A stretch of 64,000 bases of DNA from Gammaproteobacteria bacterium (GCA_020445255.1 JAGRGY010000001.1:1-64000), one strand, 5' to 3'. Numbered from the stretch's first letter, positions 1,819-49,893 are shown. Notes: generated by a model not told the origin, from the letters alone. Translations and numbers: made by a program.

Positions 1819-1846
1819 GGTGTGGTTCCCCGGTACTGCGGTCGGT

Positions 1847-31486: not shown

Positions 31487-31560
31487 GCGGGTGTAGTTCA
31501 ATGGTAGAACGGGAGCTTCCCAAGCTCTTAGTGAGGGTTCGATTCCCTTCACCCGCTCCA
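31487..31560 (+). tRNA. tRNA-Gly (anticodon CCC)
   Basis: A 74-nt cloverleaf with CCA encoded. The acceptor stem is GCGGGTG/CACCCGC, the D-arm GTTCAATGGTAGAAC and the anticodon stem-loop GGAGC TTCCCAA GCTCT, which reads CCC. The T-arm is GAGGG TTCGATT CCCTT. It closely matches E. coli glyU, which decodes GGG. A run of four CAAG units (31445-31460) lies about 26 bp upstream. Mobile-element remnants follow the 3' end, so it may be an island boundary. Confidence 0.97.
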
Positions 31561-31784: not shown

Positions 31785-32070
31785 TCTTTGCCGATGGCCC
31801 GCGTTCACCAGCGAGGCGATGCGTTGCCGGGCGACGGAACGGCGCACGAAGCATGATTCTTGCGGCCCGGTGAAGCGACCCGCTAGACCTTCGTGAAGCG
31901 TTTCGACGGCAAGTTCCGAAACGAATTCCCGAACCCGCATTGGTTTCCATCCTCGGATGAGGCGCGCCGATAGGTCGACCATTGGCGAGCACATCACAAC
32001 CAGGCGCGGCCGCGCATCCCCATCGGCAACCCGCCGCCAGATGAGTTCGCCTGGCAGTCGGAATATGTGA
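31785..32070 (+). pseudogene. Decayed IS3-family transposase, C-terminal part
   Basis: Translated piecewise, the DNA gives AFTSEAMRCRATERRTKHD (from 31801), then after a frame change at about 31857 FLRPGEATR-stop-TFVKRFDGKFRNEF, PNPHWFPSSDEARR-stop, and VDHWRAHHNQARPR ending PPPDEFA near 32050. This is the familiar IS3/IS407-type DDE end (FTS-A-D-W, FIRPGKP-NAFVESFNGKFRDECLN-HWF, DEAR-I-WR-YN-RPHSSLG-PP-EFA). At least one frameshift and two stops are present, so it is dead. Neither the N-terminal half nor terminal inverted repeats are visible. It marks past mobile-element activity right after tRNA-Gly. Confidence 0.85.
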
Positions 32071-32584
32071 GCATCGTCTCATCCGGCCCAGGGTGCCCAT
32101 GCTGGAGACCGTCGACGATCTACCGGCATCAATTCACCGTCAGGAATTCGAGGCGGTTCCGCGCTGGAGCTTCAGAACCTGAGGGAGTGGTCCGACCGTC
32201 GCCCCCTGCGTTTTGGATGTGCGATCGTCCGGGTGGCTACCGGTCGCATACTCAACGGGTTGGCAGTGGCGGTGGGTTCATTCGAATGGCCTATTAGGCG
32301 TGTTGATGAGGTCATACGGTGGGGCCGGCTGTCAGTTGCCATTGACATCAGGCTTGCCGCATTACACGGCACGTCGAATAATTCCAAGCAAGATTCCTCA
32401 AATTCACGTTCGGTCAGCCGCTTTCCGGGTGTAGGCGGTCACGCGGTGTGCCGTACCACAAATTCTGGGTCGGTGGCACTTGGCGCGCCGGATGCAGTCA
32501 GACCGGGAGGGCGGCGTTTTGAATTGTTTGGTATTGAGTCGAGAGAGGCGGGGGGCCGACCATCGCGTGTCGTGTTGCAGCGGG
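32071..32584. other. 514-bp region without a recognisable gene
   Basis: The region lies between the IS3 remnant and the TPR-protein gene. Short overlapping frames occur on both strands, but none shows a family motif or a good ribosome site. AT content rises around 32330-32410, so a promoter for the TPR gene may be here. No clear -35/-10 pair was found. Confidence 0.4.
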
Positions 32585-33301
32585 TTGCCGAAGCGTGCGA
32601 CCGGCGAGCGTCTTTTTGTCTTCGTCCTCGGTCTGGCCTTGTGTGGTTCGACAGCGGCACAGACCTTCAATCGGAACGTCTCCTGGCCGGGCAACACGCT
32701 GGCCGGTGTGCAATGCTACGGGGATGCGCCCGGCTATGGGCCATACGACTACGTGACTGAACGGGGGAAGATCGAAATCGTTGAAAAATACCATTTCAAC
32801 CCGACCGTCCAGCGGCTTGCCTTCGGCGGATCAGGTGTCGCCACGGGCGTCGAGAACAACCTCGACTACACACTGCGTGCCGTCCCGAACCATCACCTGG
32901 CCCTGTGGGCAGTGACTCGATACTATCTCGACAAACGCAAGGCCCGCGGCGAGCAGACCGTGGAACACCACGAGCGGTCACGCACAGGGAATCCCCCGCC
33001 TGAGTGCTACTTTCAGCGGGCGCAGGTCTTTGCACCGAGCGACGGTATGGTGTCGGCGATTTACGGAATCTATCTGCACAAGCGCGGCGCACTGGCCGAA
33101 GCCCTGATCGAATACCAGCGTGCGGAAAAACTCATTCCAAACAACGCTGAACTGGCCTACAACACCGGCCTGTTGTATTTCGAAATGGCCAACATGGAAA
33201 AGGCGTCCGAATACGCCGAACGGGCGAAGGCCCTTGGCTATCCGCTCAATGGTTTGCGGGACAAGATCGATCGCCGAGTGGCCGAAACCCGTTCCGAATG
33301 A
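32585..33301 (+). CDS. Secreted tetratricopeptide-like protein of unknown function
   Basis: About 238 residues from a TTG at 32585. The start is chosen because a signal peptide follows at once (LFVFVLGLALCGSTAAQTF, about 9-27). A GTG at 32567 and an ATG at 32480 are alternatives. The C-terminal third has TPR-like helices: GMVSAIYGIYLHKRGALAEALIEYQRAEKL, then NNAELAYNTGLLYFEMANMEKASEYAERAKALG. The middle part (NLDYTLRAVPNHHLALWAV) is also helical. It is convergent with the second flippase. A scaffold role in the exopolysaccharide locus is plausible but is inference. Confidence 0.8.
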   Translation: MPKRATGERLFVFVLGLALCGSTAAQTFNRNVSWPGNTLAGVQCYGDAPGYGPYDYVTERGKIEIVEKYHFNPTVQRLAFGGSGVATGVENNLDYTLRAVPNHHLALWAVTRYYLDKRKARGEQTVEHHERSRTGNPPPECYFQRAQVFAPSDGMVSAIYGIYLHKRGALAEALIEYQRAEKLIPNNAELAYNTGLLYFEMANMEKASEYAERAKALGYPLNGLRDKIDRRVAETRSE

Positions 33302-33341: not shown

Positions 33342-34823
33342 CTACCCCTGGCGCCGCGCCCGGGCACGGCTGCCGATCAGGTAAGTGATCTGTTTCAAGA
33401 TGTACGCCTCGGCGCTCTCCGGCCTGCCGACGATCAGCCAGAGAGACAACACCGAAGCGACGTATACGGCGCCTCCCAGCAGCACCTTTGCGAACAAAGA
33501 CCACAGCGTCTCGGTGGGCAGATAGCTGCCAGACAACTGCAGCACTGCTGCCATTGACGCGGCCCCAAGCAAAGGTCTTGCCACGCTCGCCGCTACCTCC
33601 CGTGCACGCAGTTCGGGCACCGCCCGCATGAGCATCGCGATCGTGCCGAGCAAGGTCACCAGTGCGGTTGCCAAACGGATTTCGGCCAGTTGGAGCGCCT
33701 GGGCAGCTGGAAATATCAGCACCGCGAGGGCAAAAAAGAGCACGAACTGCGTCCATGCGATGGCCGCATTGAGACGTACCCGGCCCAGCGTGATCAGCAC
33801 ATAGCCCGGCGTGGTGGCGATTGCCGGCACCAGATAGGTAAGGGCCAGTATCTCCACGAACGGGACTGCCGACAGCCATTTCTCCCCCAACAGGACGACG
33901 ACCGCTTCATTCGCCACGAGCGCCAGGCCGACACTGGCGGGGATCGCCAACAGGGCCTGTACTCCTTGAGCCAACAGGAATACGCGCTTGAACTCGTCCG
34001 GCTGATCCTTGACCTTGACGAAGGCCGGAAACAACACGCGGTTCAACGGCGACAGGACCTCCGTTGAAGGCATCGCGGAAATTTCGCTGGCGAGGGAGTA
34101 GGCCCCCATGACAGACGTGCTGCTTCTACCGCCAACGAGGATTCGATGATATTGGTTGTTGAGGTAGTTACCGATGTTGCGTATGAGCATCCACTGTGAA
34201 AACCCGAACACAGACTGAAACTCGGCAAGAGAAAGCCTTGGCCGCATCGAATGCATTGAATAGCTGATTACCACCCCCACCAGTCGCCCGCTGATGGCAC
34301 CGACAACGAGCGCCCAGTAGCTGCGCCACAGAAAAGCCAGCGTGACGGTCACCAAAAATCCCGCCAGTCGCTTCAGGAACATGAAGCGAAAATCCAGGCC
34401 AAAGCGCATTTCCTTCTGGAACGTAATGACACCGATGTTTTCCAGGCCGGCCAGCACCAGACTGATGCACATGAGCTGGATTACAGGCACGACGCGCTCG
34501 TCATGGAAGTAGTCGCCGGCCAGTGGAGCGATCAGCACGGCGGCCAAAGCCGCGAGCAGGAATTGTCCGAGGCGAATCGTCCAGGCGGTGTCGAAATGGT
34601 GCTGTGTTGCCCGGGCGTTCTGGATCAGCGAGGCCGCGACACCCAGATCCGTCAGTACGTCAAGCAACCCGATGACCAGGGAGGCCTGGGCAACAACCCC
34701 GAAATCGTCTGGAACAAGGAGTCTGGCAAGTATCAGCGTACTGAGCAGGCCGATCAGTTTGTCGGTCCAGCGCATGGCTACCATCAGCGTGACGCCGCGC
34801 GGGACCGTCGTGGGTTCGCTCAT
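33342..34823 (-). CDS. Polysaccharide flippase of the WzxC/MOP type (second copy)
   Basis: A 493-residue multi-pass membrane protein. GLLSTLILARLLVPDDFGVVAQAS (about 23-46) and TLAFLWRSYWALVVGAISGR (about 157-176) align readily with the flippase at 22370-23866, so the two are paralogues. It would translocate the lipid-linked repeat unit made by the large exopolysaccharide locus. It is the last gene of the minus-strand run, 643 bp downstream of the sulfotransferase, and is convergent with the TPR-like gene. Confidence 0.9.
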   Translation of the reverse strand: MSEPTTVPRGVTLMVAMRWTDKLIGLLSTLILARLLVPDDFGVVAQASLVIGLLDVLTDLGVAASLIQNARATQHHFDTAWTIRLGQFLLAALAAVLIAPLAGDYFHDERVVPVIQLMCISLVLAGLENIGVITFQKEMRFGLDFRFMFLKRLAGFLVTVTLAFLWRSYWALVVGAISGRLVGVVISYSMHSMRPRLSLAEFQSVFGFSQWMLIRNIGNYLNNQYHRILVGGRSSTSVMGAYSLASEISAMPSTEVLSPLNRVLFPAFVKVKDQPDEFKRVFLLAQGVQALLAIPASVGLALVANEAVVVLLGEKWLSAVPFVEILALTYLVPAIATTPGYVLITLGRVRLNAAIAWTQFVLFFALAVLIFPAAQALQLAEIRLATALVTLLGTIAMLMRAVPELRAREVAASVARPLLGAASMAAVLQLSGSYLPTETLWSLFAKVLLGGAVYVASVLSLWLIVGRPESAEAYILKQITYLIGSRARARRQG

Positions 34824-35466
34824 GCTCTCGATTTCCCGACCGAACCCCGCACCAACCCGCTACCGCGTTGCCGGGTCGCATTCAGGTCAGCGGCGGCCCG
34901 ACACCAACACATGCCCAGCCCAACACGGCGGATCGATACGTTCATGACGGGCAGCCGACCCCAAACCACCGCGTATCCCGATCGCCGCTCCAGCTGACGA
35001 ATTTCGCCGCCCGCTCAGGGTTCCGGCCACTTGCCGTAGACTGCCGGTGTCGCGATGCAGCGATGATCTCTGTAGTCACGATCGCCCCCTCCCGGGGGAT
35101 CCACACCAGGGAACCAGAACAAGCTATCGGCACACCCGAAGAACTCCTCAAGGCGGACTTTCCAACGTCTTCTCGGCGGGAGTTCGGGAATCTGTCACAG
35201 AATTTGACCATCCCACTCGCTCGTTGCCGTCGAGCGTCTTCATCGTGCTGCCACCGCGACCGATACCGAAAACATGAAACAGGTGGTCTCCGCTGGCGCT
35301 TGCGGTTTCGCCAATGCCGTCCCGCTGCGCGTTATCGAGGCAGGCTCGGGGGGCCGTGCCCTGGCCCTGTCTTGTCGCGCCACCTGGTGCGGAAGGCCGT
35401 GGTGCAACCTGCGCAAATACGGTCGTTTACGATGAAAATTCACGGGCAGTCGCGAATGCCCTCCCG
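34824..35466. other. 643-bp gap between sulfotransferase and flippase
   Basis: No frame here shows a convincing start, ribosome site or protein family on either strand. It is one of several unusually long gaps in this locus. It may hold the flippase promoter or a degraded gene. Confidence 0.4.
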
Positions 35467-36297
35467 TCAGGGCAGGGCCTTGAATCGATTCCACAGACCG
35501 TCGCACAGCGACTTCACTTCCGGGCTCAATGCCGGTGCGGGCCGCTTTCGCACCGATCCGGCATGTACATGGCGCGTCATGAATTCCGTGGACTCAATGC
35601 CCAGAAACCCCCCGATCCGCGTAAACGTTGCGCCTGGATCACTGACCAGGTCCTCGTAGAAAACCAGCTGCACTGCCGGATTCGCGTCCATGCCGAGGTC
35701 GAGGTAGAGCTTGTTTCGCATATACCATTGCAGCGCTGCAGCTGTAGCGTCCGTCAGCTCATCCCCAATCAGGCGTCGAATCTCCGAATAGGTCTCGTTG
35801 GACATCTTTGCGGAGCGCCATCCACCGGCCGCAGGATTTTCGGCAATCTGCAGCATCACCTGGCGATGGCTGGTGAACGAAACATTCATCGAGTTGCAGA
35901 CATCGGCATAGTGGCGAATCACCCACACGGCCTTCGCCGGCTTGAACTCCTCGATGAGTTCCGGGATGTCTTGCGACTCGCACAGCGCCTTGACGATCAC
36001 ACAGGGTGCGCGCGACCGATCAACCAGTGCGTGGATCACGGACCGATCACGCATCAGGTAGTCATCGAAGGCGCGGGGATCTGTCTCGTGATAGACGTCG
36101 GTCTCCAGGCTTCGTTCCAGAACGTCCATGAGCATGTTGGTTCCGGAACGCTGAGCGCCCCCAACGAAAACCACGTGTTGCGAGTCTGCGTTTCCTGGGC
36201 CGCGCAAGGATTGGTAGGCTCCCTTGACGGCCAGCAGTATCGCGCGCTCAATGCGACGGCGAACCTCGGCAACACCCAACGATGGTTTCTTTGACAT
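35467..36297 (-). CDS. PAPS-dependent sulfotransferase
   Basis: About 276 residues from the ATG at 36297 (MSKKPSLGVAEV); an ATG at 36336 adds 13 residues. The 5'-phosphosulfate loop is VVFVGGAQRSGTNMLMDVLE (about 42-61), and the 3'-phosphate-binding stretch is AVWVIRHYADVCNSM. The region LVFYEDLVSDPGATFTRIGGFLGI is typical of bacterial sulfotransferase-family (PF00685/PF13469) proteins. It would transfer sulfate from PAPS to a hydroxyl, most likely of the polysaccharide made by its neighbours. No PAPS-synthesis genes are in the window. Confidence 0.88.
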   Translation of the reverse strand: MSKKPSLGVAEVRRRIERAILLAVKGAYQSLRGPGNADSQHVVFVGGAQRSGTNMLMDVLERSLETDVYHETDPRAFDDYLMRDRSVIHALVDRSRAPCVIVKALCESQDIPELIEEFKPAKAVWVIRHYADVCNSMNVSFTSHRQVMLQIAENPAAGGWRSAKMSNETYSEIRRLIGDELTDATAAALQWYMRNKLYLDLGMDANPAVQLVFYEDLVSDPGATFTRIGGFLGIESTEFMTRHVHAGSVRKRPAPALSPEVKSLCDGLWNRFKALP

Positions 36298-36369
36298 CCC
36301 GTATCGTTCCGCTAATGAGGCGCTGAACAAGTCCATCCCGGGCCGCGCAACACAGCCGGTGGATAACAT

Positions 36370-37605
36370 TCAGCTCCCGCGCCTGTATCGGTAGGCCCAT
36401 ACCAGGGTATCACTGATGACAACGAGCACGTTCCTGGACCTGTCGAGGTATGCCAGCATACGATCGCCATTTGGAAACTCAGCCCCCCTTGGTACGAGAC
36501 GATTCCATTTGATTGCATCAGGGTCGTAAGCCCAAAGCGCGCGCCCATGCAGGTCGACCAGCAACCCATGCCCACTCACCGGGTCATGGTAAAAGACCGT
36601 CCGCGCATCGTTGCCGTTGGGCAGCGCCTGTTCGGTGGACGCGCCGGAAAGTACCTTGACCCACCGCTTTGCGGTCACATCGAAATGGAACGTATTGGTC
36701 CCCTGTTGTGCAACGAGCCATTTTCTAACCGGGTCATAATAGCCAACAAGCTCCTTCGATGGCGCCTGACTGGCGAAATCATTGGTCCCGGCGTTCGCCG
36801 GAAGCTGCGTCCATCGCCGGTCTGTTGGCTCGAACAACCAGGTGGCGCGCATCTGCCAGTTGTTCATGTGCCATACGGCGCCGCCGAGCGCGGACACGTA
36901 TTCGAGCATCGCACCGAAAGGCGCGGCAGGACCGGGCGGCTCCGTCTTGATCGGCGCCCACTTTCGCGCGGCCGGGTCGAAGGACCACAGTGGTGGCCCT
37001 CTATAGCGGAGTTTTGGATCCCCGCCCATGTCGCGAATGGCCTCGTCTTCGCGGGTCAGCCAGGTGTCCATGAACAATAGCCTGTGATTGACCGGATCGT
37101 AGGTTGTCCCCGACCAGGTATGGGCGATCACGGCGGGACCGCCCCGCTTGGTGATCAGCAGGCCATCGCGAAATTCCACGTCGCTGGGATCGTCCCCAAG
37201 GCCGCGGTAGCTCCGGGGATTGTCGGGTGCGTACAGCATGACCCAGGCCATTCGGCCCAGATCAAACTCCCACACGTCGTTGAGCCGATGCGGTTGCCCA
37301 TGGTTTGCCCCGAGGTACAGCGCCGTTTTGCGGTCTTCTGCCCAAACCATTTTCAGGCAGTAGTCCCGACGCCTCGGCCCGGTCCTGTCCAGCCCGAAGC
37401 GCCGCGCAACGGCATTGAAATCCCCCTCGACCCGCGCTCTGCCGAGGACAACGGCCTCGTTGTCCGAGAGTTTGTCCAGTGCCTCGGAAACCTGCACCAA
37501 CTGGGCAGGTTCGGCGACGGCGTCGCCTGCACCCGGCAACGGCAGCCAACCGATGCACGCCAGGGCGAGCCCCACAGTCAGGCGGCCGGCGAATGGGCGG
37601 GACAT
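36370..37605 (-). CDS. Secreted Kelch-like beta-propeller protein
   Basis: A 411-residue exported protein with a signal peptide at about residues 4-31 (LTVGLALACIGWLPLPGAG, cut near AVA). The rest is a series of repeats of the type NDVWEFDLGRMAWVMLY, PLWSFDPAARKWAPI, ATWLFEPTDRRWTQL, NTFHFDVTAKRWVKV and ALWAYDPDAIKWNRL. This is the Kelch-type pattern (W-x-F/Y-D...W) of a beta-propeller. It follows the PL14-like lyase by 15 bp and is probably co-translated with it. A role in binding or processing the secreted polysaccharide is likely but unproven. The start is the ATG at 37605. Confidence 0.8.
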   Translation of the reverse strand: MSRPFAGRLTVGLALACIGWLPLPGAGDAVAEPAQLVQVSEALDKLSDNEAVVLGRARVEGDFNAVARRFGLDRTGPRRRDYCLKMVWAEDRKTALYLGANHGQPHRLNDVWEFDLGRMAWVMLYAPDNPRSYRGLGDDPSDVEFRDGLLITKRGGPAVIAHTWSGTTYDPVNHRLLFMDTWLTREDEAIRDMGGDPKLRYRGPPLWSFDPAARKWAPIKTEPPGPAAPFGAMLEYVSALGGAVWHMNNWQMRATWLFEPTDRRWTQLPANAGTNDFASQAPSKELVGYYDPVRKWLVAQQGTNTFHFDVTAKRWVKVLSGASTEQALPNGNDARTVFYHDPVSGHGLLVDLHGRALWAYDPDAIKWNRLVPRGAEFPNGDRMLAYLDRSRNVLVVISDTLVWAYRYRRGS

Positions 37606-37620
37606 CGCAAATACCACCGG

Positions 37621-39108
37621 TTACCGTGCACGCCGCATCGGACCGATATAGTCCTGGGCGACGACGAGATTGTCGATGTACAGGGTCATGTCGGCGGGAG
37701 CGCGCGACGTGCCCCCATGGTAGACGTTCATCCAGATCGACTCGATCTTCAGATCGGAGACGTCTCGGAACCGAATATTTTCGCGCTCGAATACCAGGTG
37801 ACCGTCAATCCACGCACGCAGCACGCCATCCTCGTTTCCCGGCGTATTGAGCCGCACATACTGCTCAACGCTGTACCACCGGTTTTTTTCAAGCAGACCC
37901 GTGGGGGCGCGGTTCCAACCCCACGCGTCGCCATAGCTGCTGCCCATTCCCGCGTAGTACACGTATGAACCAATCCCGCGCAGGCTGCCCATTGGAGAGG
38001 CTGCGTCCGACTGCTTGAAGAATGCGCCACGCGCGGACCAGCCATTCGTGCCGTCGGCCCGCCGTCCGCCCCAACCAGCGCGCCCGTACGTGCCTGACAG
38101 CCCCGGAAGCTTCCCACCGTCACGCACGGGATTCCAACTTTCACCCAGCCGCAAATAGTATCGGAAGTAGGCACTTTCCGGCTCCTGAAAGCCGTGATCC
38201 GCGAACCGATAATGTACATTCAGGCCGAGCGTTCCACCCTTCTTGATCCGTACGCGCAGTGAACCGCCGCTTATCGGTTCGTATCCATCACCGGAGACCG
38301 AGTCGACGACCTCCGCCGTCATTTTTGGATCACCGCCTGCCCATTTGGCATAGGTATCTGCAGAATCGAACCGTTCCGCAAAGATCACGTCCGGATCAGT
38401 GTCAATGCCCCTGTCATCGGAAAATCTTTCAGCAATGCCGTGCCGAATCTCGCTTGAGTCCGACGACGGCGGAAAAGCCTGGAACACGGCTATCTCGGCA
38501 ACCCTGCTGTACTGCTTGTTGCTGGTCAGGACCAAGGTGGCACGGCGAAGGGTCGCGCCCGTCGGATCAAACGGAAACACCAGAACTGCCGCGTGACCGC
38601 CACCCACCTGTAAGACGGACTTGCCGCCAAGGCCACGGAAGTTCGGGCATGCAAAGTGGGCATCGGCTGTCGGCTCGACGCGAAGCGTGCGCCCGTCACT
38701 CCACTCCAGCACGAGTGCGGGGTGAGCGCCTTTATCCCGATGCTCCCTGCTGAAAAAATTCACGATCCCTTTTGCGTCCGGGTCCGTTGCCCTGAGGTAG
38801 ACCGCACCCGCAGGGACGCCGCCCCTTGCCCACGAGCGCGCGAGATCTGTTACGTCCCATTCGATGGTCTGACGACCTTTCTGGCGACTGACCAACTGAC
38901 TCGCATAGGGTACCGGCCCGAAGACGGCGCCGGTGGCGTCGCGCCAGTCACCGCCGTCTTTCCGCCACTCGAGACGAGCAGCCGCCAGATAGAACTGGCA
39001 CGTCATGCCCGAACCATCGTCGTGGAGTAATACTCCCGCGTTCAGGCGCGCACCCGGAATGGCGGCCAGCAGCGCCGCGCCGAACGAGATCGCGGCAATC
39101 CTCAGCAT
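37621..39108 (-). CDS. Secreted PL14-like polysaccharide lyase with a DNRLRE-type N-terminal domain
   Basis: A 495-residue exported protein. The signal peptide is at about 1-24 (LRIAAISFGAALLAAIPGA). A first domain (about 25-215) has the look of the disaggregatase-related DNRLRE module (WDVTDLARSWARGG, NFFSREHRDKGAHPALVLEW). The second domain (about 235-490) resembles polysaccharide lyase family 14/alginate-lyase-like folds: YFRYYLRLGESWNPVRDGGKL (about 313-333), WSARGAFF, RWYSVEQYVRLNTPGNEDGVL, ESIWMNVYHGGTS and MTLYIDNLVVA. It would cut a uronic-acid-containing or related glycan. The start ATG at 39108 has a perfect AGGAGG. Confidence 0.82.
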   Translation of the reverse strand: MLRIAAISFGAALLAAIPGARLNAGVLLHDDGSGMTCQFYLAAARLEWRKDGGDWRDATGAVFGPVPYASQLVSRQKGRQTIEWDVTDLARSWARGGVPAGAVYLRATDPDAKGIVNFFSREHRDKGAHPALVLEWSDGRTLRVEPTADAHFACPNFRGLGGKSVLQVGGGHAAVLVFPFDPTGATLRRATLVLTSNKQYSRVAEIAVFQAFPPSSDSSEIRHGIAERFSDDRGIDTDPDVIFAERFDSADTYAKWAGGDPKMTAEVVDSVSGDGYEPISGGSLRVRIKKGGTLGLNVHYRFADHGFQEPESAYFRYYLRLGESWNPVRDGGKLPGLSGTYGRAGWGGRRADGTNGWSARGAFFKQSDAASPMGSLRGIGSYVYYAGMGSSYGDAWGWNRAPTGLLEKNRWYSVEQYVRLNTPGNEDGVLRAWIDGHLVFERENIRFRDVSDLKIESIWMNVYHGGTSRAPADMTLYIDNLVVAQDYIGPMRRAR

Positions 39109-39913
39109 TTGAAACCTCCTTACACGATTGCATGGTTCACACATGCACGCCCTGTTTGTTGCCAAGGATGGCAGACTGCGCGGAAAGCCTCAAAACACCA
39201 GCATCCGCAGCGCTTGCTATCCAGTCCGACGGATTGCGAGGCAGCGTGCCCGGTTCACCTTGCCCGTGGAGGCTTGCTCATTCCCCATGTTTCATATCGG
39301 GGCATCTGTCCTGCGTAGCCCACGGAATCCGGCGCTGCAGGATCGGTGTGCCTGTCGATCGTGTTGGCCTTGCTTGTGCCTCGTGACAATGGGTTCATCA
39401 AACAGGCCGGCATTCACGACCGTTCAGGGCCTCAACGGCACACCACGCTTACCGACGAAGCTGTGCTCATCGTCGGATACGGCCGCGCCACGCCGGCGCA
39501 AGCCCAACGGGTTCTGGATCGTCTTCAGATACGGCGTTGGCCGATCGGCCACCCTCGGATGGCGAGTTGGCACGTCGCCGCGTTCTCGTGAAGCGCATCT
39601 TCCAATGCCCGGTCGCCCGGTCCCTGCAAATGCAGCATCAGTGACGGTGCGCAGGCGGGGCGATCACCGACCTTTCGGAAGTGAGATTCAAGCCAGCCTC
39701 CACGCGAAATCTGGGAATGAACTCATCCAATGTTCGGTCATGAGCCTTGCCTGCCGCGCTTGTTCGCGCCTGATGCGGCATGACAGCACCGAGCTGCCCG
39801 GCTCGTTCACGGGGTGCGCGACCATTTAACGAATACGCTGACGACGTCGAATCGTCTGAGTTCTTACAACGTCTCCAACTGGGGACATCCGAAACAAAAA
39901 CGTTCTTGTCCGG
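39109..39913. other. 805-bp gap upstream of the lyase gene
   Basis: The largest gene-less stretch in the exopolysaccharide locus. A long plus-strand frame (39128-39829) lacks any motif and has the composition of a shadow frame. The lyase promoter should lie near 39120-39300. I see no sigma-54 (TGGCAC-N5-TTGC) site facing the lyase gene. Confidence 0.4.
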
Positions 39914-40822
39914 TCATCTATCGGCATCGACGCCCAATCTGCTCGGCAGGAAGAATTGGCGCGAGTAGCCGAGATACCTCAAGCCTTCCAGCGACGCCAC
40001 ACTACGTAAATGGTATCGCCACGCTCGACGGAGATCACCTTGGTCCAGATGTCGGACTGACAGATTATGCAGTGCAGCAACACGCTTTTGTCGAAGCGTT
40101 TTCGCAATCCCGTGAGGAATATCAAACTCGAGCATTCGTGTCAGTACATCAACGACTCCCTCCAAATAACTTTCACTGGAAGAAACCGAATTCTCGGTCA
40201 CGTTGATGCGATAGCCGAAACTGCTCAGAAAGCGTGCCTCGAAAACCAGTGAAAGCCTGAATGCCAGGTAAGTCCATTCCATGTAGGGCGCCGGATTCTG
40301 AAAAAATTGCTCTCCTACGGACACGGTACGAAACAAGCCGCTACAACTCGCCATCCAATTGGTTTCCAACAAACTCTCCAGTGGCGGGCGATCATTCAGC
40401 TGTTCCATGTCGTCGATTACGGCCTCATCCTGACCGCGTTGATGCCGGTATCCGTTCTCGACCGCGAACGCCGCTTCAGGGTACTTCTCCAGGGCTTCGA
40501 TCCGTCGTAGTAAGGCACCTGGAAGCAGTTCGTCGTCATCATCCAAAAACGCGAAATAAGGCGTGGACACGGCCCGACGGCCAACCAACTGCGCTTCGGG
40601 CGCCGAAGGCTCATTGCAGTAGAGATACCTTATGCGTGCATCACCTCTGAGCTCTTCGTTCAATTGCTCGTCGAACCTGTTCCCGTTTACGACTACGACG
40701 GGTATCGCATGAACGCCTTCTTGGCTGGCGATGCAATTCACTGCCTTCAGCAATGACTGGCGTCGCTCCAACAATGCCATTGTGGGGATGACTACACTGA
40801 CTGAGCGATCGCCACTAGCCAT
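39914..40822 (-). CDS. Family 2 glycosyltransferase
   Basis: A 302-residue GT-A enzyme. SVSVVIPTMALLERRQSLLKAV (about 7-28), VVVVNGNRFDEQLNE, PEAQLVGRRAVSTPYFAFLDDDDELLPG (about 75-102, with the DXD motif) and MEWTYLAFRLSL identify it. The start is the ATG at 40822, inside the 3' end of the pyruvyl-transferase gene (8-bp overlap). It has no membrane segments, so it is probably cytoplasmic. Base composition is lower in GC than the flanking core genes. Confidence 0.88.
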   Translation of the reverse strand: MASGDRSVSVVIPTMALLERRQSLLKAVNCIASQEGVHAIPVVVVNGNRFDEQLNEELRGDARIRYLYCNEPSAPEAQLVGRRAVSTPYFAFLDDDDELLPGALLRRIEALEKYPEAAFAVENGYRHQRGQDEAVIDDMEQLNDRPPLESLLETNWMASCSGLFRTVSVGEQFFQNPAPYMEWTYLAFRLSLVFEARFLSSFGYRINVTENSVSSSESYLEGVVDVLTRMLEFDIPHGIAKTLRQKRVAALHNLSVRHLDQGDLRRAWRYHLRSVASLEGLRYLGYSRQFFLPSRLGVDADR

Positions 40823-41702
40823 ACCGACCGGTCTCAACGTCCGTCTTGAAACGTTCCAGCCTGAGCTGCAATTCACCAACAGCGTCGCGGAAGCGCTGCT
40901 CGTTGCTGAGCGTTGGTCGTGCCCTTCTACTTACCTGTTGAAGTTGTCGCCTTGCCAGCCGGTGCTTGATGTACGATTTTGATCGACTGAGAAAGCCACC
41001 TTCACCCCCATCTGTCCACAGTGTCGGCAGCCTGACCCACTCGTGTTCCATTCCAAGGCTTCGGCACCAGTCCTGCCATTTGAATTCCAGAATCCCCGGC
41101 GACGTCGAAACGGACACCCATGGCACCCTGAATGTGTCAGCCAAAATCGCCCCGTGCATGGCTTCCGTAATCAATGTCCCCGTGCTACGAATTGCGCGAA
41201 AGACCCGTTCAACCGGCCATCGGGGGTCGATGTAGTTGATTGCGAGATCTTCACATACCTGCTGCCACGCACCGCTTTTCGCCGTCGAGCAATGCGGCAT
41301 AAATGAAAACGCGTGCTCGACAGAACATGGGCCAAGGTCCAAGACGGCGCACAAGGCTGCGGCGTCGGTTACCGCGGTTTCCGGAGCCAATCCCAGCCGG
41401 GCCGCTGTCAGTGGTCCTCGGACGCAATAAACGATCCAGCTATCGTCAAGGTGCGGTGTAGGCCCATACCCTGCACCGGTACCGAAAACCGCCTTCTTAG
41501 GCAGCGCCGGAACATGCTGGTTCAAAAGCGTACCAATCCCGACGAACAGTGCCTCGTCCGTTATGTCTGCTTCGCGCAGTCGGGGGTCGTGGACGACGGT
41601 TCCGGAAAAGTACTGCGGCAGCAACAAGCGCCATAACCATGGATTGAGGTCGTCGCCAACGTTGCCCTGTGGATCCAGGTGATAGTACAGCTTCAAAATC
41701 AA
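40815..41702 (-). CDS. Polysaccharide pyruvyl transferase family protein
   Basis: A 295-residue protein of the ExoV/CsaB/WcaK (PF04230) group. LYYHLDPQGNVGDDLNPWLWRLL (about 5-27) has the family's early GN-GDD motif. VFGTGAGYGPTPHLDDSWIVYCVRGPLTAARLG (about 72-104) and the late TLITEAMHGAILADTFRVPWVSV (about 176-198, with the conserved H) are also present. It would add ketal pyruvate from PEP to a sugar, giving the polymer a negative charge. The start is TTG with AGAAAGG upstream. Confidence 0.9.
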   Translation of the reverse strand: MILKLYYHLDPQGNVGDDLNPWLWRLLLPQYFSGTVVHDPRLREADITDEALFVGIGTLLNQHVPALPKKAVFGTGAGYGPTPHLDDSWIVYCVRGPLTAARLGLAPETAVTDAAALCAVLDLGPCSVEHAFSFMPHCSTAKSGAWQQVCEDLAINYIDPRWPVERVFRAIRSTGTLITEAMHGAILADTFRVPWVSVSTSPGILEFKWQDWCRSLGMEHEWVRLPTLWTDGGEGGFLSRSKSYIKHRLARRQLQQVSRRARPTLSNEQRFRDAVGELQLRLERFKTDVETGRYG

Positions 41703-41788
41703 GATACCTTTCTGACTCAGGGGAATGTCGGACTCACAACATGGCAGAAATGAGATGGATCACCGATCCATCGCCTGGGCTGGCAACG

Positions 41789-43099
41789 TCAGGCAGCCCG
41801 CTGCACGTCCGATGTCCTCTCGGCCGAGTTCCCCGGCAAGCTGTCCCGCTGCCAGGCATCCAGCCACCTTTCGGTCACAACGACCACGACGAGCAGATTG
41901 TATGGCAGATCAAAATAGGCCAGGCTCAGAAATGCCCCGCCCACTGCGTATCCGACCAAGGCAACCTGACACATGCCCGCGAGATGAACGACCCATTGAA
42001 GCTCAGCATTTCCGGTTGCTCGCTTCCTAAGTCGGGCCGCCGTCCTCCAAACCAACCAGCCGAGTAGCAGGAACAGAAGCAGCCCGAACCATCCGTGTTC
42101 ACCCAGCACCTGGAAATAGATGCTGTGCGCGGCGCGGATGATCGACGGATCGGAGGCCCGCTTTTCGGTGGTTTTTGGCGAATAAATGGCCCAGGTCACC
42201 GGGTTGTACATATCAAAACCGGCCCCGAGTGGGCGACTGTTCGCAACGTTTAGCGCGGTTTCCCACGCGTTCAGTCTTCCTACCGCTGATGCGTCCTGCT
42301 CGTATTCGGTTATCGAGCTGATTTTCTCCTGGAGGGTCCACGGCATGATCATCAACGCCAACACGGCGCAAAGGACCAAACCCATACCGAGCAGCAGCTT
42401 CTTCGGCGCCCGCCACCACAATACGAAAGACATCATTGCGATGGCGAGGAATGCACCTCGCGACTGGGTTCCCAATACGGCGATCGCAGAAAAGACCATC
42501 ATGATCAGCAGTCCATAGCGGATCAATTTCTGGCTGACATTCAGGTAGAGAAAATACATCAGGGGAATGGCGACGAGAATCGCCAGGCCAATCTCGTTGT
42601 TTCCGGCGATAAACCCTCCGGGACCCCATACGCGCTGCTCGCCCCCGGTGACGACAGTGAAAATCCCACCCTTGAGACCGAGCAGGCCCAGCGAAAGGGC
42701 GTTGATCCAGACAAACAGAATGATCGTTTTCTTCTCGTGCAGTACCGCAAGCGCGACCAGCGTCATCAACTGAATCTTCATGACCTTTGACAGCTGCAAA
42801 ACGGATTCGTGAAGTGACATTGCAAACACAGTCGTGACACACATCCAGAGTATGAATGCGACAAGCGTTTTCACGACTGCTGTTCGAGGCAGCCGAACCG
42901 GATCCTTCGTAGTGAACAACGCCAGGAGCGTCGCGCCCGCTGCAATAGCGGCGAAAGGGGCGTCGTACGCAAAACCCCAGGTAAGCCGGTGCGGATTCAT
43001 GATGCTAATCCATGTCCAGAGCAGCACGCCGGCCCATGCGTGACGAATAACCCAGGGCAGCGCACCGAGGACGATAGCCGTTACGATGATGTCACGCAT
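41789..43099 (-). CDS. O-antigen-ligase-like protein, exosortase A-associated O-glycosylation ligase type
   Basis: A 436-residue protein with about 11-12 membrane helices. The start MRDIIVTAIVLGALPWVIRHAWAGVLLWTWISIMNPHRLTWGFAY region (about 1-45) is characteristic of the putative O-glycosylation ligases described with exosortase A systems. The Wzy/ligase periplasmic loop has AWETALNVANSRPLGAGF and RAAHSIYFQVLGEHGWFGLLLF (about 325-346, with the conserved His). The start ATG at 43099 has GGGAGGGG upstream. It could polymerise the repeat unit or ligate glycan to protein. No exosortase gene or PEP-CTERM protein is visible in the window. Confidence 0.85.
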   Translation of the reverse strand: MRDIIVTAIVLGALPWVIRHAWAGVLLWTWISIMNPHRLTWGFAYDAPFAAIAAGATLLALFTTKDPVRLPRTAVVKTLVAFILWMCVTTVFAMSLHESVLQLSKVMKIQLMTLVALAVLHEKKTIILFVWINALSLGLLGLKGGIFTVVTGGEQRVWGPGGFIAGNNEIGLAILVAIPLMYFLYLNVSQKLIRYGLLIMMVFSAIAVLGTQSRGAFLAIAMMSFVLWWRAPKKLLLGMGLVLCAVLALMIMPWTLQEKISSITEYEQDASAVGRLNAWETALNVANSRPLGAGFDMYNPVTWAIYSPKTTEKRASDPSIIRAAHSIYFQVLGEHGWFGLLLFLLLGWLVWRTAARLRKRATGNAELQWVVHLAGMCQVALVGYAVGGAFLSLAYFDLPYNLLVVVVVTERWLDAWQRDSLPGNSAERTSDVQRAA

Positions 43100-43228
43100 G
43101 CCTCGAGCACCCCTCCCGTTCTGATGTGGCGAAAGTGCCTGCAAGGCGCTGGATGCCGTCGCTCTCTGCATTGCGCACGATGACGTCCTCCCGGCCGAGC
43201 ACGGCCCCAACACCGTCGGAAATCTTCG

Positions 43229-43918
43229 TCATTCAGGCACCTGGAGTCGTACTACCGGTCTGGACTGCGCCGACCAACCGATATGGATGTAAGGAGCGGC
43301 GCCGATAAGCGCGAACTGCAACGGTCCGAGACAGAGAAAGGTTGCGGTGAACAGGGCGTTCATCCCCATTCGGCGGTGCGCGGCCATCGAACCCGGATTG
43401 AAAACGGAGATTCTCGAAAAACTCCAGTGGACACCCCGCGTCGCCATTTCACGATTTGCCATGTTCCACAGACGAACGAAGGTGCGCCCCATGCGGAATT
43501 CGGGCACGACGTAGACATCGAAATCCCATGCGCTGACATCCGGCGACGCAAACTCATAACGACACCGGACCTCGTCTTCGTCGTAGCCGTCAAACGACAA
43601 CCACAGATATCCGGCAAACCGGTCACGCACTTCGGCCGCGAAACATCTCGCTCCGGTGTCGAAGCGTTGCGCAATCACTTCCGGCGGCCGTGGAAAGTCT
43701 GCAATCATCGGATCGTCGCGGGTAATCTCCTGCACCGGGCTGGCGGCCGACGTGCGCAGACCGTTGTTCTGCGCGCTCACCGGTTGGGCTACCAGAAGGT
43801 ACCGGTACAACCGCGCACGGTCCCGGCTGACCACGCAAAATATCCTGTCGAGAAGGTACAGCATGCCGTTCAACGGACCGAGCTGTTCGAAATTCTCGCG
43901 CAGGACCCGCCCAATCAT
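43229..43918 (-). CDS. GNAT-like acetyltransferase in the polysaccharide locus
   Basis: A 229-residue soluble protein that looks like a GNAT-fold acyltransferase. The middle stretch FAGYLWLSFDGYDEDEVRCRY, VYVVPEFRMGRTFVRLWNMANREMATRG (about 136-163, like the acetyl-CoA loop region) and SVFNPGSMAAHRRMGMNAL (about 171-189) follow the GNAT strand-helix order. Its ATG overlaps the preceding GT4 stop by 4 bp. It may acetylate a sugar or an amino sugar of the polymer. The family assignment is by pattern only. Confidence 0.7.
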   Translation of the reverse strand: MIGRVLRENFEQLGPLNGMLYLLDRIFCVVSRDRARLYRYLLVAQPVSAQNNGLRTSAASPVQEITRDDPMIADFPRPPEVIAQRFDTGARCFAAEVRDRFAGYLWLSFDGYDEDEVRCRYEFASPDVSAWDFDVYVVPEFRMGRTFVRLWNMANREMATRGVHWSFSRISVFNPGSMAAHRRMGMNALFTATFLCLGPLQFALIGAAPYIHIGWSAQSRPVVRLQVPE

Positions 43919-45153
43919 GCCGCCTGATCTCGCGCGACGGCACGGTTCAACAGCTCGGCAAGCTGCCGGGTACGCTCGCGCCGCGAAGCACTGGCCACCG
44001 CGTCCGGCGATGGCAGGGCGCGGTTGTCGGGACTCTGGATAAATCGGGAGAGCAGGTCCGCGATCCCGTTTGCATCATCCAGGGCCGCGATCTCGGTGAT
44101 CCCGGCATCGCGCGCCACCTTGGCGGTGTCGCCAGCTGGATCGGTCAACACAAGCAAAGGTCTACCCGCCCGCAGGTACTCGTACAGTTTCGCCGGCACT
44201 TGCGCGTTGCAGTTGGCTGCCTGCAGGATCAACAGGCCGTCGGCGCAAAGCATTTCCCGCAATGCATCGCGATACCCGGTCGGCGGCAGCACCTCGATCG
44301 CATCGGCCACGCCATATTGCTGAGCCAGGTTGTTCAGGAGTTCATCGTGCACGGGCGCCCTGAAACGCACGACGAGCTTCTCGTACAAACCCTGCTGTTC
44401 TTCTCTCAGGCGTCGGATTGCTTCTAACAGTTTGGTGGGATCACGTTCGCTGGGATAGACGATCCCGCTGTGCAGCAGCGTGATCCTGCCCGGGTTCGGG
44501 GCCCCGCCAGCCTCGATGCCGGCGAAGGTTTCTTCGTCATAGCCATTTTCCAGCAGACTGATGCGTTGCGCATGCTGCGGGTATCGCTCTTTGTATTCAC
44601 GAACCGCGCTCGGAGTGGTAAAGGTGCTGAAACATGCATTGACGATGGCCTTGCGTTCGATTTTTTCGAAGCTTCGCCTTATCGTCGGGTCGGTTGGATA
44701 GTCGTCCTGGGCCATCGGATCGCGGAAATCGGCAACCCAAGGGAGTCGGGTCCGCCGGGCGAGGCTGCTGCCGATCAGGTGAGCCGTAGCGATCGGATAG
44801 GTGGACCAAAGGGCTTCAGGCTTGAGGCGACGAATCGCACCCATTCCCGACCACATAGCGCCCAGCCACCAGGATACCCAGCGATCGGGGCGAGCGAGGA
44901 TCCCCGGATACCGCCCGCGAAGTGCCAGATGGCGTGACGTATCCCAGGCTGGGGCGCGGATTACGCTGATGCCATCCGGGATATCAGCCATTTGGTCGTC
45001 ACTCACACGTTCATAGACTCTCGGGTGAGCCGTAAGCACAACGGGTTCCCAACCGAATTCTGGCAGGTAACGGGCAAAACGCAGCGTGCGCTGAATACCA
45101 CTACTTCCGGCCATCGGAGGAAAATGGTAGGCAATCATCAGCACCCGTTTCAT
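43915..45153 (-). CDS. Family 4-type (GT-B) glycosyltransferase
   Basis: A 412-residue enzyme. The N-terminus reads MKRVLMIAYHFPPMAGSSGIQRTLRFARYL, with the HFPP-GSSG-R loop seen in many bacterial GT4-like proteins. The C-terminal half holds TLLHSGIVYPSERDPTKLLEAI (about 225-246) and CADGLLILQAANCNAQVPAKLYEYLRAGRPLLVL (about 307-340), with an EX7E-like KLYEYLRAGRP. The start ATG at 45153 lies 85 bp downstream of the dehydrogenase-cytochrome gene stop. The stop overlaps the GNAT-like gene. Confidence 0.87.
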   Translation of the reverse strand: MKRVLMIAYHFPPMAGSSGIQRTLRFARYLPEFGWEPVVLTAHPRVYERVSDDQMADIPDGISVIRAPAWDTSRHLALRGRYPGILARPDRWVSWWLGAMWSGMGAIRRLKPEALWSTYPIATAHLIGSSLARRTRLPWVADFRDPMAQDDYPTDPTIRRSFEKIERKAIVNACFSTFTTPSAVREYKERYPQHAQRISLLENGYDEETFAGIEAGGAPNPGRITLLHSGIVYPSERDPTKLLEAIRRLREEQQGLYEKLVVRFRAPVHDELLNNLAQQYGVADAIEVLPPTGYRDALREMLCADGLLILQAANCNAQVPAKLYEYLRAGRPLLVLTDPAGDTAKVARDAGITEIAALDDANGIADLLSRFIQSPDNRALPSPDAVASASRRERTRQLAELLNRAVARDQAA

Positions 45154-45238
45154 CAATCTCACCGGCAAGTCAGTCAATCACCAAAAAAGCTCATCACCCG
45201 CCAGCTCTGCTGGGCGAACCGGTGGGCACATGGACAAC

Positions 45239-47338
45239 TTATCGTTCGCCATTGCCAACTGCTTGAGCCCGAATGTATTTCACAAGCGCGTTTATTTCCG
45301 CATCCGACAGCGCCATCCCCCAGGGTGGCATCATCGGACTCAGACCGCGCGCTCCGCCTCCGTTCTTGATGACCGCGATCAGGTCTTCATCCGTTCGCTG
45401 CGTCTGGAACTCTGCAGACGCGAAGTTCGGGACGGGTACTCCCAACTGCGACGAGTCCGGACCGTCTCCACGACCGCTCGGACCATGGCAACGGCTGCAA
45501 TTGGTTGAAAACAGGCCCTTCACGTCGGCGTCACTGACAGGCGCGGAGACGACGGGAGCCGAAGCCGCGGTGTCGCTGCTGGACTCACTCTTCGGTATCA
45601 GGCGGATGATTTCACCGCTTGATCCACTGGCGCTGCCCAGCGTGGTCAGTAGGATTTGGCCGTCCGGCGTTTCCACGAACGAGGTGATTCCACGCTGGGC
45701 ATACTGGTTCGCCTTGCCGAGCAGCTCGACTTTGGTGACGACCTCACCGGACGCCGGGAGTGCATAGATGTTTCCAGAGTAATTGTCTCCGAACAGATAC
45801 TTGCCCTGAAGCTTCGGATAGCGTTTTCCGCGATAGACGATGCCTCCGATCACGGCGCGCTCATAAGCCGTGTGTTGGTAGGTATAGATGGGCGCGACCT
45901 CATCACCCCAGAGCTTTTCCGGCCTGGGCTTTCCTGTTGCCTGGTTGCCCTCGATGTAGGGGAACTGGTAGTTGCCACCCTTACGCAGCAGATTGACCTC
46001 CTCCCAGACCGTGGAACCCACCTCGCCAGCCCACAGGTTGCCGTTCGCCGGGTCGAAGGCGATCCGGAACGGGTTGCGAAGTCCGACGGCATAAAATTCC
46101 TCGAGCACGCCTGGCACACCGGCGAACGGGTTGTCATTGGGGATGTAGTAGTCCTGCGTCTTGCCGTTGACCGGCTGCCGAATGATCGGGTGACTGATGG
46201 CACCGCCCCGCTGATCCACGTCGATACGGAGTACACCACCGCTGAGCCCCATGTCGATCCGCTGATGGGCGTCCGGATCGGTCATCTCACCGAAGGCGAC
46301 ATACAGAAATCCGTCGGGCCCGAACTCCACCGATCCACCGTTGTGGAATCCGTCTTCATCACGATCGATCTCCATCAACACCCGCTCGCTGGCACGGACA
46401 GCCTGCGGCTCACCCGAAGAAAGATCGAATCGTGAAAGATGGTTGATCTGCTGACCCTGCAATACACTGGTGTAATAGAGATAGATGAAGCCGCCGTTGC
46501 CCGATCCGGCGTTGCCAAACTCCGGGTGGAAATCGAAGCCGAGGGCGCCGTTCTCTGCATCGACCTCGCCCACGGTGTCCGAGAAATCCAAGACCAGGCT
46601 GGGCTGCCCGGGTTTGTTCCAGGGCATTCGATAAAGGCGGCCATGGCGTTCGAGAACGTACATTTCGTCGCTGCGGCCGGGTGGAAACTGGACCAGAATC
46701 GGCTGCAGGAAACTCCGACCTCCAATCGCGTTTTCAACAGTCCAGCCGCCTGTATCACTCGTGTTCAGATTTATTCGGATCTGCGTAATCAGATTGGCGA
46801 CATCGCGATCGGTCGTGAAAAGCTTCGCCAGGATGCCGGGAGACAGTGCAAGCAACAGGGCGATGACGCCGGGAACAGAGAAGACTCTGCGCAGCAAGGC
46901 ACGGAAAAACCCGCCGAGCGCAGCGACGAGTCCTGTTGCAGGTACGGCGGTCACGAAATAGAGGACCACGTAAATCAGCAGGCAGACGACAAAGATGCCC
47001 ACGATGAACTGGGGGTCGAAATTCACCGTGGTGGTGACGAACACCACCAACGACGAAATCGCGAATGCGACGGCCAACAGGAACACCTCGTTGACGGTTC
47101 GTTTCGCATCACCGGGACGCCAGGCACCCAGAAGCCACTGCGCCACCCCGAGAACGAGTGCGTGTATGACAAGGAAGTATTTGAAAACTATCCAGAAATC
47201 GGCGGAATCGTAGTTGACCTCAGGCAGCCTCAACAGCCACTTGGGGATGATGTCGACAACCCCCTGCAGCCAGTCGGCGATGAACACCGCACCGGCAACG
47301 ATGCCCAACTCCACGAATAGCGTCACCAGCCGTCGCAT
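45239..47338 (-). CDS. Membrane-anchored PQQ-type sugar dehydrogenase fused to cytochrome c
   Basis: A 699-residue three-part protein. Residues about 1-180 form roughly five membrane helices. Residues about 190-585 are a soluble-glucose-dehydrogenase-type six-bladed propeller (EMYVLERHGRLYRMP, GALGFDFHPEFG, HNGGSVEFGPDGFLYVAFGE, GLRNPFRIAFDPANGNLWAGEVG, GKYLFGDNYSGNIYAL). After a Ser/Ala linker, about 595-695 is a class-I cytochrome c with haem site CSRCH (614-618) and a distal Met in PMMPPWGM. It should oxidise a sugar in the periplasm and pass electrons to the respiratory chain. The ATG at 47338 follows GAGGTGG; a TTG at 47353 is the alternative. Confidence 0.87.
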   Translation of the reverse strand: MRRLVTLFVELGIVAGAVFIADWLQGVVDIIPKWLLRLPEVNYDSADFWIVFKYFLVIHALVLGVAQWLLGAWRPGDAKRTVNEVFLLAVAFAISSLVVFVTTTVNFDPQFIVGIFVVCLLIYVVLYFVTAVPATGLVAALGGFFRALLRRVFSVPGVIALLLALSPGILAKLFTTDRDVANLITQIRINLNTSDTGGWTVENAIGGRSFLQPILVQFPPGRSDEMYVLERHGRLYRMPWNKPGQPSLVLDFSDTVGEVDAENGALGFDFHPEFGNAGSGNGGFIYLYYTSVLQGQQINHLSRFDLSSGEPQAVRASERVLMEIDRDEDGFHNGGSVEFGPDGFLYVAFGEMTDPDAHQRIDMGLSGGVLRIDVDQRGGAISHPIIRQPVNGKTQDYYIPNDNPFAGVPGVLEEFYAVGLRNPFRIAFDPANGNLWAGEVGSTVWEEVNLLRKGGNYQFPYIEGNQATGKPRPEKLWGDEVAPIYTYQHTAYERAVIGGIVYRGKRYPKLQGKYLFGDNYSGNIYALPASGEVVTKVELLGKANQYAQRGITSFVETPDGQILLTTLGSASGSSGEIIRLIPKSESSSDTAASAPVVSAPVSDADVKGLFSTNCSRCHGPSGRGDGPDSSQLGVPVPNFASAEFQTQRTDEDLIAVIKNGGGARGLSPMMPPWGMALSDAEINALVKYIRAQAVGNGER

Positions 47339-48030
47339 CTTGTTCCACCTCAACTTTCAGCCTGCACACGCGCAGATGGGGTCGCACTATATCGACTTCT
47401 GGCGAACGAAACCTGCGGCACGCCGACATTTCACCACCCGCGGGGGGATCCGACGTTTCCCCCGCGACGAACGTGTCGGAATGGGCGAGTGTTCCGGATG
47501 ATGTGGACAATCGGATATCCCGGAATTGTGTAGCCCGACAGTAAAAAGAGGGTCCCCCGGGTGATCACGCGAAGCGAGGCGGGAGCCAGGGTGGATGAGC
47601 ATCGCCGGGGGGGCGGTATCTCGACGAGTACCTTCTGCAGCCGGCACAGCAGATGCACTGGGCTCGATGGGAACAAGGCCAGATGCCTGCGGGAACCCAG
47701 TCGTTCGGATGGTCACCGGGTACCGCGCATTCGCATCGATCGCAGCGAATGACCCGGTCTGTTCGACGCCCCGCTTCAGCCGCTCGTCGATCTCGTCGAA
47801 TTCGATCCAAAGCATCGACAGAAGATTCCGCCCGGCACACCGCGTATCGCAGGCCTCGTCATCGATGATGTGCGGCATCCAGTTGGCGGACGTCGGCGAC
47901 GGCCTGCTTCGCAATGCCGTGTGCCCGAGACAATCGGTCTTGCCTGGGGGATCGTCCGGGTTTGTCCGTCGAACGGCTGATCGCCGACTCAGTGCGGGAA
48001 CTGGCGTGCACTAGCCCGCGGATTGGAATG
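47339..48030. other. 692-bp gap between methyltransferase and dehydrogenase genes
   Basis: Frames on both strands (for example 47387-47914 minus and 47595-48014 plus) overlap each other and carry no family signal. The promoter of the dehydrogenase fusion gene probably lies near 47380-47400, where TATAGT is seen on the minus strand, but there is no good -35. Confidence 0.4.
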
Positions 48031-48810
48031 TCACTTGCCGGTCACCGATTCGTAGAAGCGCGTTAGCGCCTTGTTCTCGATCGAGGGATCCCGCTCGCAT
48101 TTGATGACGATGTTGCTGACCGGATAAAACGAGGTCGTCAGCGTGCCGACAATCTTTTTGACAAAGCGTTTGAACGGGTCGTTGACAACAGTCTTTTCCA
48201 CCACCCGAAAACCGAAGTACTCCAGATTCTCGATCAACGCCTTTTCGTTGAAGAAGGCACAGGAATTCGCGAAGCGCCCCTTCAACGGCGTGTCTTTGGG
48301 GCTTGGGGTATAGAGTGCGGCCCGACGGTTGTAATCATCGTAGATGCCGGTTTCGAGAATCATGGTGCCACCGCTCTTGACCAGGTCTCGCACCACTTTC
48401 AGCGCGCTGAACGGATATTTCAGGTGGTAGAGGACGCCGGCGAATATCACCAGATCGAACTGGCCGTGTTCCTCGGGATTGAGATCGAGCATGTTCACGT
48501 GCAAGGGTTCAATCTTCGAACCGAGGTGAGGCAAAATAACCTCACGCAGGCATTCGATATTGTGCTCGGTGTGGTCTGCACCCACGACGCGAGCGGCGCC
48601 CCGTTTCTCTGCCTCCAAGGCAAACAAACCGCTGGCACAGCCGATATCGATCGCGCTCTTGCCGGACAGATCCATGTCGCCGATGAGCTGCAAAACCTTT
48701 TTCTGCTTGACGTCTGTTGGCAGGCCCGGGGTCTTGATCCCATTGCCGAGGTCTATCGTCTGATAGAAGGTGTATTGGGAAAGCTTGTTGACAAGCTCTT
48801 CGTTTTCCAT
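48031..48810 (-). CDS. SAM-dependent methyltransferase (DUF1698/CmoB-like)
   Basis: A 259-residue class-I methyltransferase. Motif I is LSGKSAIDIGCASGLFALEAEKRGA (about 48-72), then VVGADHTEHNIECLRE. The later stretch FDLVIFAGVLYHLKYPFSALKVVRDLVKSGGTMILET (about 119-155) closely resembles CmoB/DUF1698 enzymes. Here it more likely methylates a sugar or lipid of the polysaccharide pathway than tRNA, because the flanking genes are surface-glycan genes. Its base composition is visibly lower in GC than the core genes, consistent with acquisition. Confidence 0.88.
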   Translation of the reverse strand: MENEELVNKLSQYTFYQTIDLGNGIKTPGLPTDVKQKKVLQLIGDMDLSGKSAIDIGCASGLFALEAEKRGAARVVGADHTEHNIECLREVILPHLGSKIEPLHVNMLDLNPEEHGQFDLVIFAGVLYHLKYPFSALKVVRDLVKSGGTMILETGIYDDYNRRAALYTPSPKDTPLKGRFANSCAFFNEKALIENLEYFGFRVVEKTVVNDPFKRFVKKIVGTLTTSFYPVSNIVIKCERDPSIENKALTRFYESVTGK

Positions 48811-49515: not shown

Positions 49516-49893
49516 TAACGGTCCACATGGCGAATTCCTTGAACCGCTCAATACGACATTGTTTCTGGCGTGATTCGGATGTGCCGCAATGGCGTGCGGT
49601 CGTGACGCGTAGGTTCTGCCCCCTGAATCGGTTGCAATTTCCCCCCGCGGTGGTTGCACGTGGGGGCTTGCCGGGTCGCAGCCGGCCTTTTTGGGCGGGA
49701 CGTATCGAGTTTGGCACGGCATGGTGCTTCAACGCCGCGAACCGGGGTCGACAGCGGTCACCGACCGCCGTGGGCGCGGCCCCGGTCCTGGGTGGTGACA
49801 GACGGCGACGATATTCCGGGTGCCGGCTAAAGCGTTGGGGTCCGTGCGCCGCCACATCGGGGGTAATCGATTATCCCTTCAAGGATCCGCTGC
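49516..49893. other. 378-bp divergent region before the first chemoreceptor gene
   Basis: It separates the STAS gene (minus) from the MCP gene (plus). A weak sigma-28-like pair, TAAAGCGT at 49828-49835 and GCCGCCAC at 49848-49855, has 12-bp spacing and a poor -10. A short palindrome AATCGATT is at 49864-49871. Nothing else was recognised. Confidence 0.35.

Follow-up and report, generated by a model that had tools for sequence, protein, structure and literature searches.

The window, a stretch of 64,000 nucleotides from a draft gammaproteobacterial genome, carries at positions 33342-48810 a locus that is probably the variable module for repeat-unit assembly and decoration of an exosortase-A (XrtA/PEP-CTERM) exopolysaccharide (EPS) system, set apart from the rest of that system as a separate low-GC island beside a tRNA-Gly gene. 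On this reading, the locus names the concrete genes with which an environmental gammaproteobacterium would make an exosortase-type exopolysaccharide bearing sulfate and pyruvate; the genome as a whole holds two exosortase-type EPS loci, with a sulfotransferase gene accompanying each polymer system.

All eleven consecutive minus-strand genes that a preliminary description of this DNA had placed at 33342-48810 were confirmed as open reading frames, and in profile searches the families that it had named proved mostly right, the GNAT and pyruvyl transferase calls being the weakest. The island and its left border contain the following features.

31487..31560, plus strand: tRNA-Gly-CCC, left border of the island
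31885..32067, plus strand: IS3-type transposase (rve_3) relic with one internal stop, beside tRNA-Gly-CCC (PF13683, E 2.4e-11)
32480..33301, plus strand: secreted TPR protein, convergent with wzx (TPR Pfam matches; not in the preliminary description)
33342..34823, minus strand: Wzx-type flippase, MOP family (PF13440, E 4.6e-70; MOP flippase models below cut-off)
35467..36369, minus strand: PAPS-dependent sulfotransferase, Sulfotransfer_3 (PF13469, E 3.8e-12; PF00685, E 1.3e-6)
36370..37617, minus strand: secreted Kelch-like beta-propeller (PF13415, E 4e-5; PF24681)
37621..39165, minus strand: secreted PL14-like polysaccharide lyase with an N-terminal DNRLRE/CBM96-like domain (PF21294, E 3e-16; NF033679)
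39914..40879, minus strand: GT2 glycosyltransferase (PF00535, E 5.7e-9)
40815..41702, minus strand: ExoV-like pyruvyl transferase (PF04230 at cut-off, 25.3 bits)
41789..43213, minus strand: exosortase-A-associated O-ligase/Wzy-type polymerase, PEP_O_lig_1 (TIGR03097, 453 bits; Wzy_C, PF04932)
43229..43918, minus strand: GNAT-like acyltransferase of an EPS-associated family (8 of 14 homologues match Acetyltransf_1)
43915..45177, minus strand: GT4 glycosyltransferase (PF13579, E 3.4e-9)
45239..47353, minus strand: fusion of five TM segments, GSDH (PQQ-type sugar dehydrogenase) and cytochrome c (PF07995, E 3.6e-37; PF13442/PF00034)
48031..48810, minus strand: SAM-dependent methyltransferase (PF13489, E 8e-16)

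The row of eleven genes is not a tight operon, being broken by three non-coding gaps at 34824-35466 (~640 bp), 39166-39913 (~750 bp) and 47354-48030 (~680 bp). GC content is 0.56-0.61 over 32-50 kb and mostly 0.62-0.68 outside, a dip that is consistent with an island, and third-position GC also falls across it. Met20 of the lyase ORF is the likely start of that protein, as is an internal Met20 for the GT2 gene. The island holds no RNA element apart from the tRNA, and neither an initiating sugar transferase nor nucleotide-sugar genes; statements of absence that concern the genome as a whole are based on family searches. On the far side, a STAS-domain protein gene (49168-49722, minus strand) separates the island from the gene for a methyl-accepting chemotaxis protein.

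The ligase provides the link to the exosortase-A system. Its score against TIGR03097 is far above the cut-off of 188, and a family search found no other match in the genome. Exosortase A itself is encoded on contig C9 (TIGR03109, 339.8 bits against a cut-off of 208; C9:25708-26478), together with an export core whose members are all over cut-off: Wza (TIGR03027), the chain-length protein (TIGR03007), the kinase (TIGR03018), TIGR03016, the ATPase (TIGR03015) and the deacetylase (TIGR03006). The amidotransferase TIGR03108 is split across the ends of C9 and C50, and because the gene is interrupted there each piece falls below cut-off; housekeeping genes follow the piece on C50. At least four PEP-CTERM proteins in the genome exceed their cut-off. 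Among the genes annotated around the C9/C50 core no Wzx or Wzy was recognised, and the island has both.

Related genomes contain similar sets in closer association. TPR homologues adjoin the TIGR03097 ligase in genomes G002, G011, G032, G150 and G303. G011, of the same family and nearly closed (2 contigs), carries its ligase, TPR, Wzx and GT4 genes in one run with ORFs like those of the XrtA core, which were recognised from sequence appearance rather than by family search. Ligase, TPR, Wzx and GNAT genes lie together in G150, and G303, from another family, groups the ligase with TPR, Kelch, GT2, GT4, asparagine synthase and deacetylase genes. We read the island as a detached XrtA-type module because its ligase belongs to TIGR03097, the genome encodes an XrtA core, and these linked sets occur in G011, G150 and G303. 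Against assigning it to that core, no physical link between the two is visible in this draft genome, where the ligase is on contig C54, which extends more than 40 kb to the left and far more to the right, and the core is on C9/C50; such linkage is the rule in these systems, although not an absolute requirement. The second exosortase-type EPS locus of the same genome (G000), on C5 (L018, L099, L100), encodes gmd/fcl (GDP-fucose), PrsT, Wzx, a Wzy_C-like protein and a sulfotransferase, and could be the partner of the island instead.

The decoration genes point to an acidic product. On reading of its sequence, the sulfotransferase keeps the motifs GGAQRSGTNML and RHYADVCNSM, which we take to be the PAPS-site motifs of its family, and a bifunctional Sat/APS kinase for PAPS supply is encoded on C5 (PRK05537, 765.9 bits), ~2 kb downstream of the second EPS locus. 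Given these motifs and this kinase, sulfation of the polymer is plausible. Pyruvylation is plausible as well, since the pyruvyl transferase is 43% identical over 232 aa to that of the Sinorhizobium medicae succinoglycan (exo) locus. The acidic, sulfated and pyruvylated polymer first proposed is thus retained as an extracellular acidic heteropolysaccharide, with both decorations probable rather than established, as PAPS supply is encoded and the succinoglycan locus offers a homologue. Identification of the GT2 protein with ExoW was rejected, as the two share the family motif and no meaningful similarity beyond it. For the GNAT-like protein, the call on the island sequence itself is below threshold (E 0.07); the best PDB match of its family profile is an N-acetyltransferase (E 1.7e-4), and the family is present in 16 of 210 order genomes, in several of them within EPS loci. 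Single-sequence structure predictions for the GNAT-like and Kelch proteins (pLDDT 31 and 36, respectively) were too low for use, and no plasmid-borne relatives of the Kelch, GNAT or sulfotransferase genes were found.

The PL14-like lyase scores 60.2 bits against PF21294 (cut-off 27) and aligns to the alginate lyases 6kcw and 5gmt, with GGKLPGL conserved in the alignment to 5gmt; SxR and YxY are visible in its sequence and, from knowledge of the PL14 family, are presumably catalytic. A Halorussus plasmid carries a 43% identical homologue within a glycan locus. PL14 and Kelch are rare among the related genomes: PL14 occurs in 3 of 146 family genomes (this one, G007 and, as a weak match, G085), and Kelch in 3 of 369 class genomes, one homologue being in an EPS locus of G303. 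The PL14 gene of G007, a genome of the same genus, is accompanied by a different sulfotransferase, a heparinase II/III-like protein and, further along, a Wzx. That row (L087, G007:C13, 5395-10852, minus strand) runs heparinase II/III-like protein, sulfotransferase, 159-aa ORF and PL14-like lyase, with the Wzx ~4 kb off, and is a possible independent sulfated-glycan cassette. As a separate observation among the loci extracted from related genomes, L102 (G008:C81) contains at 1087-4335 (minus strand) a 1083-aa ORF that starts MQYRLALDLGTNSIGWAVF, resembling the Cas9 RuvC-I motif.

The full island gene set, in this exact combination, was seen in no genome but this one. The preliminary description had held that homologues scattered independently in related genomes would speak against a single system, and this pattern was found in part: in G007, PL14 with sulfotransferase, dehydrogenase with ligase, and GNAT are on three different contigs. 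Such a distribution could mean that the island is a recent mosaic, in which an older EPS module (dehydrogenase, GT4, GNAT and ligase) was recombined with unrelated cargo (PL14, Kelch and sulfotransferase), in which case they could serve more than one polymer. The non-coding gaps that set the blocks apart, the transposase relic and tRNA border, and the separation of the blocks in G007 all favor this, as does the border itself: the AMP-ligase/tRNA-Gly junction is kept in all six same-genus loci scanned, and the DNA beyond it differs among them. However, the G007 PL14 gene also has a sulfotransferase and a Wzx with it, the G303 Kelch gene shares an EPS locus with a ligase of this type, and all eleven genes have one strand and a relation to glycans in common. 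We regard such a mosaic as unlikely.

As a module of an exosortase-A system, the locus would work as follows. GT4, GT2 and probably further transferases would build a lipid-linked repeat, which the cytoplasmic, PAPS-dependent sulfotransferase, the ExoV-like pyruvyl transferase, the GNAT-like enzyme and the methyltransferase may then decorate. Wzx would flip the decorated repeat, the TIGR03097 enzyme would polymerise or ligate it, and export of the chain would fall to the XrtA core on C9/C50, provided that the island serves this core. Once secreted, the PL14-like lyase probably shortens the uronate-containing chain or sets it free, the chain presumably being that of its own locus. Beyond these family functions, we infer the substrate chemistry and what the dehydrogenase-cytochrome protein does.

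The ligase step could also be read differently. TIGR03097 bears the NCBIfam name 'putative O-glycosylation ligase, exosortase A system-associated', which leaves room for a protein-attached product: the enzyme would transfer glycan to proteins, in an O-glycosylation tied to PEP-CTERM sorting, rather than build a free exopolysaccharide. PEP-CTERM proteins are indeed present in the genome. Nevertheless, this reading is quite unlikely, as the genome has the complete Wza/PCP/kinase machinery for export, a long polymer would better account for the ExoV-like enzyme and the secreted PL14 lyase, and the acceptor activity of TIGR03097 is itself a putative annotation.

The real oddity of the locus is the dehydrogenase-cytochrome c fusion, which is restricted to the genus and co-inherited with one ligase clade. 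Its five N-terminal TM segments are followed by a GSDH domain and a cytochrome c domain. The GSDH domain aligns to soluble quinoprotein glucose dehydrogenases (3a9g, 2g8s) with the catalytic His and the HNGG and RNP motifs conserved, and a CxxCH haem site is present. Beyond this genome, full-length relatives among the 210 order genomes were confined to G004 and G007, both of the same genus, and a scan of genome contigs with the fusion returned the same two only. The ligases of the three genomes form one clade (97/95). In G007 the fusion adjoins the ligase; in G004 it is at one contig end and GT4-GNAT-ligase, in the order of the island, at another, an arrangement that is consistent with the island gene order without proving it. 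Directly upstream of the fusion in both G004 and G007 is a BtuB-like TonB receptor (L073, 764-2647, and L028, 821-2761; 51% identical to each other), with no match in the island genome or in the other six genus genomes. A decayed receptor upstream of the island fusion was considered and rejected, as the non-coding gap there shows no trace of one. Identification of the G004 and G007 receptor as a PQQ receptor was likewise rejected, the closest solved relative being BtuB and no YncD/PqqU match being obtained at 1e-10.

PqqE was not found in the genome by family search (best match 94.7 bits, cut-off 381), and thus PQQ would have to be imported unless the fusion enzyme is idle or different. For the respiratory oxidation step that had been proposed for this locus we found no evidence, since PqqE was not detected and the dehydrogenase travels with the ligase and TonB receptor, not with sulfation or lyase genes; in G004 and G007 it has neither a sulfotransferase nor a lyase as a neighbor. 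One speculative idea, to which we give a low probability, is that the fusion is a dedicated redox partner of one exosortase-A ligase clade, a periplasmic, membrane-anchored enzyme that would oxidise nascent or lyase-released polymer sugars with scavenged PQQ and pass electrons to the respiratory chain; in the relatives, the adjacent TonB receptor perhaps brings in PQQ for it. If the dehydrogenase does act on the polymer, matrix production would be linked to respiration, an unusual idea. That the locus is instead a self-contained, undescribed system, one that sulfates and pyruvylates its polymer, trims it with a lyase of its own and oxidises it while feeding the electrons to the respiratory chain, is very unlikely, for although all the gene families are side by side and the dehydrogenase keeps its quinoprotein and haem motifs, the locus has no export core, the PqqE match is far below cut-off, the dehydrogenase keeps other company in G004 and G007, and PL14 and Kelch are rare and occur in differing combinations.

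Among known systems, the closest are the XrtA (EpsH)/PEP-CTERM exopolysaccharide systems (Haft 2006, PMC1569441), including the Aquincola floc locus (PMC9850573). The island shares with them the TIGR03097 ligase, Wzx, TPR protein and GT4, and its genome also shares XrtA, TIGR03007/03018/03027/03015/03016/03006/03108 and PEP-CTERM proteins. It differs in apparently being detached from the core and in adding the sulfotransferase, PL14, Kelch and GSDH-cytochrome c proteins. With the Sinorhizobium succinoglycan exo cluster the likeness is the 43% identical pyruvyl transferase, which there adjoins Wzx-, GT2- and polymerase-type genes and a glycanase; that glycanase is GH16, not PL14, the homology of the neighboring GT2 stops at the family motif, and neither exosortase nor sulfotransferase occurs in the stretch of the cluster that was read. 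In the synechan xss cluster of Synechocystis we know of no lyase or GSDH. This cluster shares a Wzx/Wzy pathway and sulfotransferases with the island, but is cyanobacterial, with eight glycosyltransferases and two sulfotransferases, and the searched part of its description yields no pyruvyl transferase (PMC8205485). In Vibrio cholerae VPS, the secreted lyase RbmB cleaves the exopolysaccharide of its own producer (PMC11637428); the polymer is different, and the likeness to the island lyase is one of role, that of a lyase in its own locus. According to the portions of the reports searched, Cobetia capsules are sulfated and pyruvated, with both sulfo- and pyruvyltransferase in the locus and the pyruvate acetal measured, and the capsule of Vibrio sp. 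KMM 8419 is sulfated (PMC11766843, PMC11641403). The island thus shares a sulfotransferase and PAPS synthesis with both, and with Cobetia also the pyruvyltransferase, whereas these capsules use ABC-transporter (Kps) export, and the same portions mention neither exosortase nor lyase. As the gammaproteobacterial capsules of Cobetia already pair sulfate with pyruvate, and as the island is an assembly module of the XrtA/PEP-CTERM EPS kind, the earlier designation of an undescribed system is withdrawn. What is new is the combination of published parts in one exosortase-type module, together with a genus-restricted dehydrogenase.
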